Positions 43,170 to 49,079 of a stretch of 64,000 nt of DNA are shown here, piece by piece. The DNA is taken from assembly GCA_944323735.1 (NCBI GenBank), contig CALUTO010000011.1:1-64000 (forward strand), read 5' to 3'. The stretch comes from Candidatus Gastranaerophilales bacterium. Lineage in GTDB: Bacteria > Cyanobacteriota > Vampirovibrionia > Gastranaerophilales > Gastranaerophilaceae. Numbering within the stretch: the first letter of the stretch is position 1; every line of letters starts with the position of its first letter. The notes under the pieces were generated by a model that was not told the DNA's origin, ran no database searches, and saw only the letters and a program-made list of their open reading frames with translations. The position numbers and the translations under genes were made by a program.

Positions 43170-44320
43170 AACAAGGCAGGCATGACCCGCCGGAGGCTTG
43201 AAAATTTGTCATGCTGAAGCGCAGGGCGGAGGATGTGTGTGTCAGGTGTGGATGTTCAGCATCTTACCATTTTGGCAAAATTGTTTAAAACAAGGCGCAT
43301 TTTAATTCGCAATGCTTATTTAATTCTCGCACTGCTTTTAAGATCCTGAACATCAGCGATTATTGTACACTTTCACCATTCAACGCTTCAGGATGACATC
43401 TTTCTGTCATGCTGAAGCGCAGGGCGGGGGATGTATGTGTCAGGTGTGGATGTTCAGCATCTTACAATTTGGGAAAAATTGTTTAAATCAAGGCGCATTT
43501 TAAGTCGCAATGATTATTTAATTCTCTCACTGCTTTTAAGATCCTGAACATCAGCAATTATTGTACACTTTCACCAATCAACTCTTCAGGATGACATCTT
43601 TCTGTCATGCTGAAGCGCAGGGCGGAGGATGTGTGTGTCAGGTGTGGATGTTCAGCATCTTACCATTTGGGCAAAATTGTTTAAATCAATGCGCATTTTA
43701 ATTCGCAATGATTATTTAATTCCCGCAATGCTTTTAAGATCCTGAATATCAGCGATTATTTGCACACCTTCACCATTAAACGCTTCAGGATGACATCTTT
43801 CTGTCATGCTGAAGCGCAGGGCTGGGGATGTGTGTGTCAGGCGGGGATGACCCGCAGGAGGTAAAGTATAAAAATGGTGAGCTTCAACAATATGATTTTT
43901 GCTTTTTATTCCACCCATTCTTTTAAAAAGAACGGGTGGAGCCGAAGAAATTTTTCGGGCTGCTGTTCCACTCATACAGAAAGTAAATTAAACCTTTGTC
44001 TCATAACTCGCAGCCCAGATTGCCGCATAAATTGTTGCATATATTTCAATAATCTTGGAAATAATTAAGGGCTGCTCGGACAGATGAGACTAATCGTTGT
44101 TTAATTAACTTTCTGTAATTCATTTCACAATGCCCGAATTTTTTATTCAATGCTTCAGGATGACAGTTGTTATGCGAAAACGAAAACCTCATGCTGCATT
44201 TTTAACCTCCTGAATATCAGTGATTATTTGCACTCATTCACCAATCAACGCTTCAGGATGACATCTTTCTGTCTTAATGAGGCGGCTTGCAGGCATGACC
44301 CGCCGGAGGCTTAAAAATTA
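43170..44320. repeat. Left array of about 198-bp repeats (plus orientation)
   Basis: Four units begin with CATGCTGAAGCG at 43210, 43408, 43606 and 43805 (spacing 198, 198, 199), the last truncated near 43860. Degenerate pieces continue to 44290. Within each unit CGCTTCAGGATGACA and TGTCATGCTGAAGCG form a 15-bp hairpin with one mismatch, and GATGTTCAGCATCTTA pairs with TAAGATCCTGAACATC further on. A separate GACCCGCCGGAGGCTT element flanks the array at about 43180 and 44298. The same unit occurs in reverse at 48265-49012. No protein-coding gene is convincing in this stretch. Confidence 0.85.
43910..43940. other. Strong hairpin in the left repeat region
   Basis: TCCACCC(A)TTCTTTT pairs with AAAAGAA(C)GGGTGGA over no real loop: 15 positions with one mismatch. 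It is not followed by a T run, so it is not an obvious terminator. Confidence 0.5.
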
Positions 44321-44349: not shown

Positions 44350-47300
44350 TTACCCCATAACGGAACTAAGAAGAGTCATAATCATCTGAGTTCTGGCAGC
44401 CTGAGTCTGGGCAAGCAGAGACATGGCAGTCTGCTGCCTAATCTGGTATTCAACATACTTTTGTGTTTCAGCAGCAATATCAGCATCCATAATAGAGGAA
44501 TATGCGGCATATTTGTGCTCCTGCTTCATAACATTGGTGTCATAGATAACTTCAAGCCTTGTCATATAAACACCGACATCGGTCTGTTTAGACTTAACAG
44601 CATCGATAAGAGCATCAATTGCGTCAATAGAATCCTCACAATCTTCAGCAGAAGACATATCAAGAGAGAATTCGTCAAAGAGGAAAGTGGTGTCGCAGTA
44701 TAAAGCGGAGGACTCTGAGGAGTCCGTGCCGACCTGCAAACGGATATTGGAGACGCCTTCGGTTTTGAGTCCTGCAACATCAAAAGGAGGTTTTTGGGGC
44801 TCATCATCGTCATTGCCGCCGGTGTTACCGCCGTCGGGATCAGTGCCGCCTGTACCTCCGCCCGTGCCGGAACCATCGCCGCCTGTGCCGGAACCATCAC
44901 CGCCTGTACCGGAACCATCGCCGCCTGTGCCGGAACCATCACCGCCTGTACCGGAACCATCGCCGCCCGTACCGGAACCATCACCGCCATCACCACCGTC
45001 ACCGCCGTCGGGATCTGGAACAGTTTCTGTCGAGGTTGAAATGCTTCCTGTGTGAGTGTCCTGAGAGTCATCGAGTCCGTAGAAGTTAGAGAAACCGGAG
45101 GAGTCAGAGTTAACTTTCAAATCGGACACCCCTTCAGCCGTAATCTGGATTTTGCCGTCAGAGCCGATAGTTGACGTCAAACCTGCATCATTGATTTTGT
45201 CTAAGACATCAGAGCGAGTGTCTGTTGCTGATACAGAAACATTAACGCCGTTAGAGAAGGAGATTTGTCCGTCAGTTTGTCCGTAAAAGTAGTTGTCAGC
45301 AAAGTTGTTAGTGTTGACAGATCCGGTGATAGTGGAGGTTGCGGGCTGAGAGACAGAGCTGCCGGAGGATACGGAGCCTGAGTAAGTTTTACCGGAAGAG
45401 GACAGCCCGTAGAAGTCAGCGAAACCTGAACTGTCCGAAGTAACTTTCAAATCCGAAACACCCTGAGCTGTGATTTTTATCTTACCGTCAGAGCCGATTT
45501 CAGCAGTCAAACCTGCATCATTGATTTTTTGAATAACTTCCGAACGTGTATCATTAGCATCAATAGAAACATTAACGCCGTTAGAGAAAGACAGCAGCCC
45601 TGAAGATTGTCCGTAAAATGCAGAGTCTGTCATACCCGTCGTGTTAACCGAGCCTGTGAGTGTGGAGGAGCTTGAGGCATCGTCTTTAGAAAACATATTT
45701 TTGAGAGTAGGAGTTGAGCCTGAAAAGTCCCAGATAGATTCATCCCAGCCAAAGTTGGTGAAATTCGCTGCGTTGGCAAAATCAGCTGTTTTTAATCCTG
45801 ATACATGGGAAAGAGTGGCTCCCGCCCCGTTGTGTGTTGCTTCACTTTTCCCTGTTTTTTGTTTGTCCCAGAAGGAGTATTCTATTGTTAATGAACTGTC
45901 TGGAGATCCGACCAGCCCATAGCTGAAAGTACCACCGTTGATGTAGCCCGAGGCATAGCATCTTAAAATTGTTGTATTTCCTGCTGTGAATCCAATAAGC
46001 CCGCCGGCGAAGTAACCGTCTACTGCTCCTGTTGCAAATGAATCTGATATATCTGCAAACTTTGCGTATCCTACCAGCCCTCCTGCAGCATCGTTAGGTG
46101 AATTCACTTCACCTGTTGCATACGATTTTGAGATATTTGTGCCGGTAGCATTCCCGACCAGTCCTCCTGAAAAATCTACACCAGCAGCAGTTTGTACGTT
46201 TCCTGTTGCACCGCAGTTAGAAATAGTTCCGTTCCTATCTTCTCCTACTAATCCGCCGCAATAATCACTGTCCTCTGAATCAATTTCTACAGACGCAAGA
46301 CTTTTGCTTATTCTTCCTTCTAAATTATATCCGATGAGTCCTCCTGCTGTTACCACCCCTGAGGCATTATTGTCATTAACATCGATTACTCCGCTTGCAG
46401 AACAGTTAGTTATAGCTGTATTTGCATTTTTTCCAACAAGTCCTCCTGCGTAGCAATCAGAAGTATATGCACTTGTGAAAATTTCAATATCTGTTGAACA
46501 GTCAGTTATGGTGGTTGAATAATCAGTACTACCTATCAAACCTCCTATTGTCACAGAACTACCGCGAATTTCCCCTGTTACATAGCAATTTGATATTTCC
46601 GTCATATTAATTGCTTCGCCAATCAATCCGCCGGTGCAATTTGCAACAAAAGTAGAATTAGGGTCACTTGTTGTTATACTTATATTTTCCATTCCTAAAT
46701 TTTTAATAGTTGCACCATCTGTCTTCCCGAATAGTCCATTTATGAGATTCTCGTCACTAAAATCCATACTAAAATTCTTGAGCACATATCCGTTACCGTC
46801 AAGAGTGCCTGTAAATGAGCCATAATCACTTCCAATCGGCGTCCAGCCGGTGAAAAAGGACATGTCAATGTCCCCCATGAGAATATATTTTCCGTCCAGA
46901 TTGAATTTTATATTACTCAACTGCGCAGCAGTTTTTATAACAGTATACCCCTGCGCTATGGCCTCTTCCTCTGTCAGCCTGTCAACCTGCCTTACAAACC
47001 CGACCTCATCAGCTCCGCTGCCGGATGAAACGTTCGTCGTTGTTCCCGCCTGAACCTGATAACTCGCCAGCCCCGAAACCCTCGCCATATCACCCGTCGC
47101 CTGAATGGAAATACCTGATGCCTCACTCTCAATCGTGAACTTCCCGTCTTGAATAGATGCAGTAACAACCCCCTGCGAATTTATCTCCGAAATAATCTGG
47201 TTTAAAGTTTTCCCTGCCGTGTTAATCTCTGCCCCGCTGCCAACTTTAATAGTGCCTGAAACAACAGTCTCGCTTCCGTTCAGCCCCGCCGCAGCCCCCT

Positions 47301-47601
47301 GGGAAATATAAACATTCTGTGCGGATGTGTTCGAGGTAGAACCCGCCTGCACAGTATAACTTCCAATCCCTGTAACCCTCGAAAAATCCCCCGCAGCATC
47401 AATACTAACTTCTCCGCTTTCACTCTTAATAGTGAACTTCCCGTCCTGAATAGATGCACTAACCTGCCCCTGCGCAGTAATCTCATCAGCAATCTGCCCT
47501 AAAGTCTTTCCTTTAGCATCAATAACTCCCCCGCTGCCAACCTGAATACTCCCGCTTAAAATAACAATATCTTCGCTTAACCCTGAATTGGCCCCCTGCA
47601 T
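44350..47601 (-). CDS. Giant flagellin, central adhesin-like and C-terminal part (split frame)
   Basis: 1083 residues; the same frame is open upstream of this ATG back to the C9 tract at 47702-47710, and no ribosome binding site precedes the ATG, so this is not an independent gene. Order: two flagellin-IN-like repeats (about 10-190, each with ASIQDGKFTI), an adhesin-type region from about 195 (GSFTGTLDGNGYVLKNFSMD) with at least seven GLUG-like GGL(I/V)G units (323-565), two further IN-like repeats of about 110 residues (647-860, each with VNVS...NDAGL...IGSDGKI), a Gly-Asp-Ser-Thr minisatellite linker (866-930), and a flagellin D1/D0 C-terminus (about 980-1083: DADIAAETQKYVEYQ, QQTAMSLLAQTQA). 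Adding 191 gives numbering in the joined 1274-residue chain. It would be exported by the flagellar apparatus and assemble as filament. Confidence 0.85.
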   Translation of the reverse strand: MQGANSGLSEDIVILSGSIQVGSGGVIDAKGKTLGQIADEITAQGQVSASIQDGKFTIKSESGEVSIDAAGDFSRVTGIGSYTVQAGSTSNTSAQNVYISQGAAAGLNGSETVVSGTIKVGSGAEINTAGKTLNQIISEINSQGVVTASIQDGKFTIESEASGISIQATGDMARVSGLASYQVQAGTTTNVSSGSGADEVGFVRQVDRLTEEEAIAQGYTVIKTAAQLSNIKFNLDGKYILMGDIDMSFFTGWTPIGSDYGSFTGTLDGNGYVLKNFSMDFSDENLINGLFGKTDGATIKNLGMENISITTSDPNSTFVANCTGGLIGEAINMTEISNCYVTGEIRGSSVTIGGLIGSTDYSTTITDCSTDIEIFTSAYTSDCYAGGLVGKNANTAITNCSASGVIDVNDNNASGVVTAGGLIGYNLEGRISKSLASVEIDSEDSDYCGGLVGEDRNGTISNCGATGNVQTAAGVDFSGGLVGNATGTNISKSYATGEVNSPNDAAGGLVGYAKFADISDSFATGAVDGYFAGGLIGFTAGNTTILRCYASGYINGGTFSYGLVGSPDSSLTIEYSFWDKQKTGKSEATHNGAGATLSHVSGLKTADFANAANFTNFGWDESIWDFSGSTPTLKNMFSKDDASSSSTLTGSVNTTGMTDSAFYGQSSGLLSFSNGVNVSIDANDTRSEVIQKINDAGLTAEIGSDGKIKITAQGVSDLKVTSDSSGFADFYGLSSSGKTYSGSVSSGSSVSQPATSTITGSVNTNNFADNYFYGQTDGQISFSNGVNVSVSATDTRSDVLDKINDAGLTSTIGSDGKIQITAEGVSDLKVNSDSSGFSNFYGLDDSQDTHTGSISTSTETVPDPDGGDGGDGGDGSGTGGDGSGTGGDGSGTGGDGSGTGGDGSGTGGDGSGTGGGTGGTDPDGGNTGGNDDDEPQKPPFDVAGLKTEGVSNIRLQVGTDSSESSALYCDTTFLFDEFSLDMSSAEDCEDSIDAIDALIDAVKSKQTDVGVYMTRLEVIYDTNVMKQEHKYAAYSSIMDADIAAETQKYVEYQIRQQTAMSLLAQTQAARTQMIMTLLSSVMG
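44860..44985 (-). repeat. 21-bp minisatellite encoding GDGSGTG x6
   Basis: Six tandem 21-bp units encode Gly-Asp-Gly-Ser-Gly-Thr-Gly at residues 873-914 of the frame above. Codons alternate slightly (ccgcctgtg, ccgcctgta, ccgcccgta), so the units are old enough to have drifted. Unit number can change without breaking the frame. Confidence 0.9.
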
Positions 47602-47657
47602 AACAGTAAGCTCAATTTCAGCAAGAGTAGAAACTCCGCCGGATGTTGCAGCCGGAG

Positions 47658-48173
47658 CTAAACTAGGCGCAAATGCAGTGGTAGAGAGCGTTTGAGTTGT
47701 CGGGGGGGGGTGCTGGAAGCCGAAACCTTGTTTACAGCGGCATTCGCCGTGTCATCAGCCCCGAAAACATTAATCCCGTTGAACTCTGACTCGTCCTTTA
47801 ACTTGAATAACTCCTCTAAAAGAGCATCAGTCTCCTTCTGAATAGCCTGCCTCTCAGAATCCTCAACATTATCATTGGAACCCTGAAGCGCAAGATTCTT
47901 AATCCTGTTTAAAATATCATACATCTGTCCAAGTGAATCATGAGCAGTGGTCATAAAATTTAACCCGTCAGAAATGTTCTGCTGAACAACAGCTAAAGAA
48001 CGTAACTCGGAATTAATAGAAGAAGCAAGATAATATCCCGCCGGATCATCAGCAGGAGAATTAATCCGAAACCCTGAAGTCAAACGCTCAAGAGCTTGAT
48101 TAACATAATTAGATGAAATATTAATGTTACGCTGTGCAACAAGCACATTGGGATCGAAATTAAGGGAAATCAT
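47658..48173 (-). CDS. Giant flagellin, N-terminal part (frame ends at C9 tract)
   Basis: 171 residues, of which 1-157 are flagellin D0/D1 (SSNYVNQALERLTSGFRINS, ADDPAGYYLASSI, NISDGLNFMTTAHDSLGQM, LALQGSND, EFNGINVFG). Residues 158-171 are read out of frame after the C9 tract. A complete flagellin needs the C-terminal D1/D0 coiled coil, which is found in the 44350-47601 frame, so this fragment alone cannot polymerise. The start has ACAGG about 8 bases upstream and a good sigma-70-type promoter, not a sigma-28 one. No other flagellar structural gene is in the window. Confidence 0.88.
   Translation of the reverse strand: MISLNFDPNVLVAQRNINISSNYVNQALERLTSGFRINSPADDPAGYYLASSINSELRSLAVVQQNISDGLNFMTTAHDSLGQMYDILNRIKNLALQGSNDNVEDSERQAIQKETDALLEELFKLKDESEFNGINVFGADDTANAAVNKVSASSTPPRQLKRSLPLHLRLV
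47702..47710 (-). repeat. C9 homopolymer tract splitting the flagellin
   Basis: Nine C in the coding direction, after Thr155 of the N-terminal part. Nine C leads to 14 out-of-frame residues and a stop at 47658; ten or seven C gives Pro-Thr-Thr-Gln-Thr-Leu and continues into the large downstream frame. 44350-48173 is 3824 bases, exactly one short of 1275 codons. This is the size and place of a slippage contingency tract, or of a homopolymer sequencing error. Confidence 0.85.
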
Positions 48174-48202: not shown

Positions 48203-48252
48203 AGATGTAAAACATCTATAAATATTATATATCATGATAACCTAAAAAACAA
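48203..48252 (-). promoter_or_regulatory. Flagellin promoter with downstream palindrome
   Basis: On the minus strand: TTGTTT (48252-48247), 17-base spacer, TATAAT (48229-48224), then the palindrome AGATGT-TTT-ACATCT (48217-48203) seven bases later. The palindrome would lie at or just after the transcription start, as an operator or 5' hairpin. The promoter lies inside the repeat-flanked segment. Confidence 0.6.
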
Positions 48253-48264
48253 GAGGTGAGAGGA

Positions 48265-49012
48265 AAACTGTCATGCTGAAGCGATGATTTGTGAATGAGT
48301 CTAAAAATCACTGATGTTCAGGATCTTAAAAGCAGTGAGAGAATTAAATAATCATTGAAAATTAAAATGCACATTGATTTAAACAATTTTGCCCAAATGG
48401 TAAGATGCTGAACATCCACACCTGCCGCACACATCCCCAGCCCTGCGCTTCAGCATGACAGAAAGATGTCATCCTGAAGAGTTTAATAGTGAAGGTGTAC
48501 AATAATCGCTGATGTTCAGGATCTTAAAAGCATTGCGGGAATTAAATAATCATTGCGAATTAAAATGCGCATTGATTTAAACAATTTTGCCCAAATGGTA
48601 AGATGCTGAACATCCACACCTGCCGCACACATCCCCAGCCCTGCGCTTCAGCATGACAGAAAGATGTCATCCTGAAGCGTTTAATAGTGAAGGTGTGCAA
48701 ATAATCATTGCAAATTAAAGTGCGCATTGATTTAAACAATTTTACCCAAATGGTAAGATGCTGAATATCCCCGCCTGACACACACATCCCCAGCCCTGCG
48801 CTTCAGCATGACAGAAAGATGTCATCCTGAAGCGTTGAATAGTGAAGGTGTACAATAATCGCTGATGTTCAGGATCTTAAAAGCATTGCGAGAATTAAAT
48901 AATCATTGAAAATTAAAATGCACATTGATTTAAACAATTTTTCCCAAATGGTAAGATGCTGAATATCCCCGCCTGCCGCACACATCCCCCGCCCTGCGCT
49001 TCAGCATGACAA
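48265..49012. repeat. Right array of about 198-bp repeats (inverted orientation)
   Basis: Units end with CGCTTCAGCATGACA at 48460, 48658, 48813 and 49011 (spacing 198, 155, 198; the third unit has a deletion of about 43 bp). Sequence is the reverse complement of the left array (for example GGTAAGATGCTGAACATCC here against GGATGTTCAGCATCTTACC there). Together the arrays form inverted repeats around the 3.8-kb flagellin locus. Confidence 0.85.
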
Positions 49013-49079
49013 ATTTTATTTAAAAAGTTTTTGCGGTGCCGGATATGCACGCTTATATATAAATTCCATTGCCATAATA

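Follow-up and report, generated by a model that had tools for sequence, protein, structure and literature searches.

Homopolymeric C/G tracts as proposed slipped-strand switches within the long flagellin genes of Gastranaerophilales

Introduction

The Gastranaerophilales are gut bacteria, and one genus of the order carries a family of long flagellin genes in which homopolymeric C/G tracts lie just downstream of the conserved N-terminal region. Sequence comparison indicates that these tracts are very probably slipped-strand contingency switches located within flagellin structural genes. The gene at the center of this analysis is found on the minus strand (positions 48173 to 44350) of a 64,000-nucleotide (nt) stretch of DNA from an uncultured Candidatus Gastranaerophilales bacterium, referred to here as the window (GenBank assembly GCA_944323735.1, contig CALUTO010000011.1, positions 1 to 64,000), and its assembled copy is broken at nine consecutive C. 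The window genome (G000; 2.06 Mb in 56 contigs) was compared with three other species of the same genus (G001 to G003), the relatives all being metagenome-assembled.

A flagellin gene split at a C9 tract

The window gene possesses both hallmarks of a flagellin, namely N-terminal and C-terminal D0/D1 regions, as recognized by Pfam and by the fold of a paralog. The upstream open reading frame (ORF; 48173-47658) encodes the N-terminal part (D0/D1-N; Pfam Flagellin_N, 2.4e-31) as a 171-residue OFF-phase product, in which the first ~154 residues are flagellin and the remainder is out of frame. The C9 tract, which is the proposed slippage switch, occupies 47702-47710 on the minus strand (gene codons 154-157). 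It is followed by a frame of 1116 codons (47700-44350, minus strand) that stays open from the tract to the flagellin C-terminus and has no start or ribosome binding site of its own. The entire span is 3824 nt, a multiple of three minus one base, so that the assembled copy is OFF; joining of the frames would give a product of ~1270 residues. As in a contingency locus, a simple repeat thus stands within a coding frame that it can break or join.

A preliminary description of this DNA, made from the letters alone, had given the same coordinates, two minus-strand frames, a nine-C separator and a joined length short by one base, all of which match the sequence. It had also noted a downstream frame without a ribosome binding site, which agrees with the lack of a Shine-Dalgarno sequence at the ATG at 47601. 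Its start for that frame, 47601, has to be moved upstream to the tract (47700), because in an alignment the residues directly past the tract are conserved with an ortholog.

The C9 tract is unlikely to be a coincidence. It is the sole C/G run longer than 6 nt in the window, and runs of at least 9 nt are encountered at just two places in the window genome. The other of these, also C9 (contig C25, position 479), looks intergenic. An Rfam search of the flagellin region found no RNA.

Distribution of tracts among long flagellins

Long-flagellin N-termini were found 23 times in the four congeners (16 in G001, two in G002, three in G003 and two in G000); two are cut by a contig end ahead of the tract site, which leaves 21 that were judged. 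A C/G run of 7-13 nt is present between codons 140 and 179, just past the D1 helix, in 19 of the 21, and the two copies without a tract (L037 and L038) are both in frame. Seven of the 19 tract-bearing copies are in frame (ON) and 12 are out of frame (OFF), a share in keeping with the one third in frame that would be expected at random (p = 0.81), and all three frames occur. The ON copies are L040 (G12), L041 and L042 (both C11), L047 and L048 (both G11), L050 (G11, in frame to the contig end) and L054 (G13). The OFF copies are the window gene (C9), L059 (C7), L051 and L056 (both G8), L044 (G11), L057 (C11), L039, L043, L045 and L046 (all G12), L049 (G13) and L053 (C13). The second long flagellin of the window genome (L218, contig C41, 3-3505) consists of an N-terminus, a G8 run and an RTX-repeat part that is out of frame and extends for at least 1013 codons before the contig end cuts it.

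Tracts are concentrated at this functionally placed site: the G001 genome has 15 C/G runs of at least 9 nt, and 12 of them sit there, in copies that are related to one another. Tract length also differs among close relatives in a way that changes the frame. The paralogs L045 and L046 (G12, OFF) differ by one G from L047, L048 and L050 (G11, ON), with near-identical sequence on both flanks. The window gene itself has an ortholog in G002 (L053) with a C13 tract, which is OFF, and one in G001 that keeps the same proline run, broken by synonymous bases (ACC CCT CCT CCC), and is in frame, being open for 1124 codons to the contig end. The preliminary description had called for a comparison with related genomes; the C9 and C13 OFF orthologs, the interrupted ON ortholog and the G11/G12 paralogs favour its inference of a contingency switch. 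Viral contigs were scanned for within-species copies and none were found.

Outside the genus, a member of another genus of the same family (G195) carries a G12 tract at codon 151; this copy is OFF, and its remainder of 1183 codons is intact. Most of the relatives there are in frame and lack a long tract.

Integrity of OFF copies

The OFF genes are otherwise intact and under selection. Each of the 12 has one uninterrupted frame after the tract, 432-1474 codons in length, and the other frames of the counted segments hold 20-106 stops. Nine of these frames finish in the flagellin C-terminus (D0/D1), and the other three run off the contig. Ratios of nonsynonymous to synonymous substitution (dN/dS) downstream of the tract range from 0.13 to 0.34 (Nei-Gojobori method, saturated pairs excluded), with values of 0.17 for the window gene and L053 of G002, 0.32 for L045 and L046, and 0.23 for L049 and L051, pairs in which both members are OFF. 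Purifying selection is seen on both sides of the tract, OFF/OFF pairs included. Dead genes would not be expected to show such intact frames and such dN/dS at this divergence.

The purity of the tracts was considered as a separate argument and set aside as weak. Among the G001 paralogs, about half of the fourfold sites of the N-terminal part do not vary, and therefore three to four invariant tract codons mean little alone.

Ordinary flagellins

Ordinary flagellins of ~300 residues (280-334 codons) occur six per genome in the four genomes, and all 24 are uninterrupted. The frequency of OFF genes is thus 12 of 21 for long flagellins versus 0 of 24 for ordinary ones (Fisher p = 1e-5). The preliminary description had the filament protein itself turned on and off, which is too broad: the window gene is one of a multigene family and not the sole filament protein. 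As each genome retains six intact ordinary flagellins, a switch would alter the composition of the filament rather than flagellation. All four genomes encode FlhA and FliD, so that the subunits under the switch would most likely enter filaments built of ordinary flagellins.

Each genome has two FlhA-type proteins of full length, along with one partial match (contigs C22, C8 and C23 in G000). This set hints at two export systems, of which genera without long flagellins retain just the second. Very long open frames were also noted, one of 3249 codons with a flagellin-N match (G019:C28:23108) and others of 5924-6511 codons with weak FliD-N matches (G008:C1:69012, G168:C9:19053 and G002:C2:73428).

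Structure of the insert and linker

The surface insert of the window gene includes a GLUG (M26-N-like) repeat region at 46378-46929 (Pfam Glug, 7.4e-21; the fold is known from a model of the homologous insert in a paralog) and a Flagellin_IN motif at 45466-45585 (Pfam, 3e-9). A 21-base-pair (bp) tandem repeat of 6.2 copies at 44858-44988 encodes a Gly/Asp/Ser/Thr-rich spacer before D1-C, and the C-terminal D1/D0 helices occupy 44368-44628 (Pfam Flagellin_C, 3.1e-10); all of these lie on the minus strand.

The ON paralog L048 (also designated L096) was modeled with AlphaFold (mean predicted local distance difference test score, pLDDT, 72). In the model, D0/D1 helices are accompanied by a beta-solenoid predicted with confidence at about residues 200-520, and the tract codons fall within residues 139-190, where confidence is low. 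In Foldseek comparisons the helices match flagellin filaments, and for the solenoid the match is to the GLUG region of M26 immunoglobulin A1 (IgA1) proteases (3n6z, E 5e-8). Other long-flagellin copies carry RTX and DUF3060 repeats in place of GLUG, and one ON paralog reaches 1435 residues. The tract encodes Gly or Pro, which according to the model lie within a flexible, disordered linker between the D1 helix and the beta-solenoid, upstream of the whole surface domain. Length changes by whole codons should be harmless at such a position, as extra Gly or Pro would be tolerated in a disordered linker. An M26 (IgA protease) function was rejected, since the weak Pfam match covers the repeat scaffold only; no protease domain was found in the flagellin.

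Surroundings of the window gene

A TATAAT sequence (48229-48224) and a palindrome, GATGT-TTT-ACATC (48216-48204), precede the gene on the minus strand (48204-48229 together) and are conserved in alignments upstream of the G001 and G002 orthologs. They are a putative promoter/operator, the palindrome possibly being a candidate operator for a common regulator. A 198-bp repeat flanks the gene as an inverted pair, with 3.2 copies on the plus strand at 43207-43856 (left arm) and the opposite orientation at 48263-49017 (minus strand, right arm), the arms being up to 92% complementary over 398 nt. The repeat is species-specific, as further copies are located on contigs C13, C15, C16 and C19 of G000 and none in the three congeners. 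The presumed promoter and the flagellin gene both fall inside the segment between the inverted repeats, and no recombinase-like ORF was recognized among the ORFs adjoining the gene. For these reasons, an invertible flagellar switch of the Hin type was rejected, although inverted repeats are present.

Alternative explanations

In the assemblies the majority of long flagellins are out of frame, as would be seen if the OFF copies were decaying pseudogenes and the tract merely the site of a frameshift. Decay is nevertheless very improbable: none of the 12 OFF copies has a further stop or frameshift in its 432-1474 downstream codons, dN/dS is well below 1 between OFF copies whose dS is near or above 1, and the break is always at the tract, with one third of the tract-bearing copies in frame. 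That all true genes are in frame and the breaks are homopolymer errors of sequencing or assembly would be in keeping with the use of metagenome bins and with the difficulty of calling tracts of 11-13 nt. It is very unlikely: the tracts of four OFF copies (C7, G8, G8 and C9) are short enough to be normally well called; moreover, the frames split 7 ON to 12 OFF, and the existence and placement of the tracts do not depend on their exact lengths. Slippery runs can in principle induce frameshifting, so that a short and a full product might be made from every template by programmed ribosomal or transcriptional frameshifting at the tract. This appears exceedingly unlikely, as the downstream frames stand at 0, +1 and +2 relative to the N-terminus across copies and one directed shift cannot serve them all; the orthologs also differ in tract length (C9 and C13), and one without a tract is simply in frame.

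Recombination, either gene conversion between paralogs or inversion at flanking repeats, might be the main source of variation with the tract being secondary. The G001 paralogs are mosaic (L039 and L040 are 100% identical upstream and 71% identical in the N-terminal part), and the window gene lies between the inverted arrays of ~400 nt described above. However, inversion would not switch the gene when its presumed promoter lies inside the inverted segment, no recombinase-like ORF adjoins it, and the flanking repeats are found elsewhere in the genome but are absent from the congeners, whereas the tract is shared. A leading role for recombination is thus very unlikely. Recombination is also at work, as the mosaic upstream regions of the G001 copies show, and it may add diversity, but it does not explain the frames.

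Several observations do weigh against a slippage switch. The G001 ortholog of the window gene is tract-free and fixed ON, and the shared ancestry of the paralogs means that tract counts are not independent. Tract purity, given the invariance of fourfold sites among paralogs, is by itself only mildly unexpected, and each genome is a single consensus sequence that supplies one tract length per gene.

Proposed mechanism of switching

In the slipped-strand mechanism proposed here, the D0/D1 helices at both ends of the ~1270-residue flagellin would pack into the filament, with the GLUG-type beta-solenoid insert displayed on its surface. The nine-C run, lying in linker codons that separate D1-N from the insert, would be the site of mispairing, where gain or loss of a single C at replication would shift the downstream part in or out of frame. 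When in frame, the whole subunit would be made and could join filaments of ordinary flagellins; when out of frame, the 171-residue stub alone would be made. The tract, the frames, the intact OFF copies, the tract-length differences, the purifying selection and the intact ordinary flagellins and flagellar genes are seen in the sequences, whereas the rate of slippage, its reversibility in the cell, the incorporation of long flagellins into filaments and a role in adhesion, or in escape from antibodies or phage, are inferred. As most long-flagellin paralogs share the tract and each has its own surface domain (GLUG or RTX/DUF3060), a population would be a mixture of cells with differing sets of decorated subunits. 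Different flagellar coats could probably be turned on or off randomly in individual cells.

Other candidate switches and wider significance

Long G runs abound in sister genera that lack long flagellins. Of the 24 C/G runs of at least 9 nt in 393 kb of G012, 19 are located within ~50 nt past a Shine-Dalgarno/ATG and lead into prepilin-like proteins (FTMAEILLSLTIIGVVAAITLPSL), five of the 19 being in frame. In G012 (L195-L213), and in G006 and G016 (L171-L194), dozens of G11-14 runs were noted some 10 codons into prepilin-like genes. The sister genera apparently hold very large phase-variable pilin-like repertoires, and the G012 tracts suggest that the family switches filament subunits in general. 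A membrane/surface gene in two pieces (~100 and 482 codons) is a candidate second contingency locus: three congeners have a G run at the same place in it, of 12 nt in L069:4137 (G001), 13 nt in L072:3740 (G002) and 10 nt in L078:3825 (G003). This gene and the prepilin-like genes are named by the appearance of their sequences only. An acyltransferase-like membrane protein has a C/G11 run at its C-terminal end in L070:3933 (G001) and L077:3394 (G003).

It is moderately likely that C/G-tract slippage generally generates filament diversity in these bacteria. Each cell would then make its own random selection from as many as about a dozen flagellins with different beta-solenoid or RTX domains, and sister genera would do likewise with very large prepilin-like repertoires, so that a commensal would vary its extracellular filaments combinatorially. 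Contingency loci have been known chiefly from pathogens adapted to a host. Here the switched object appears to be the filament subunit itself, in a multigene family with different surface domains, and the bacterium is a commensal of the gut with kinship to Cyanobacteria. If this holds, the make-up of the filament would be a random and combinatorial trait. Metagenomic reads could reveal it, and it would bear on adhesion, host recognition of flagellin and flagellotropic phages.

Comparison with known systems

No precedent for a homopolymer switch in a flagellin gene, nor for phase variation in Gastranaerophilales or Melainabacteria, was found in the open-licence full-text literature; Candidatus Melainabacteria have been noted as having flagella (PMC7018530). 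The poly-G/C contingency loci of Campylobacter, Helicobacter and Neisseria resemble the present genes in having a C/G run of 7-13 nt in the frame of a surface gene, in the number of such genes and in random ON/OFF states. In the flagellar examples found in that literature, phase variation concerns regulators, export/basal-body and glycosylation genes (flgR/flgS, flhA, fliP, maf and cj1295; PMC8355987, PMC2831843, PMC3068675), whereas here the tract is inside the flagellin gene itself and the host is a gut bacterium of the Gastranaerophilales.

The M26 IgA1 protease N-terminal region, a GLUG beta-solenoid (PDB 3n6z, 7uvk and 6xja), is the best fold match of the insert and shares the repeat scaffold only. 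In Salmonella (FljB/FliC, by Hin) and Escherichia coli (flk/fll), as here, which flagellin gets made is switched; there, recombinase-driven DNA inversion or excision acts between two flagellins (cited in PMC7018530). Slippage is proposed here, at many mutually independent loci. Poly-G/C contingency loci and giant flagellins are both already known. The giant flagellins of Thomson et al. (2018; PMC6248924) exceed 1000 residues, a size that the window gene would reach with its frames joined, and have, as here, conserved D0/D1 and a large surface insert. They are not described as phase variable; here a GLUG/RTX-type insert is combined with a frameshifting tract.

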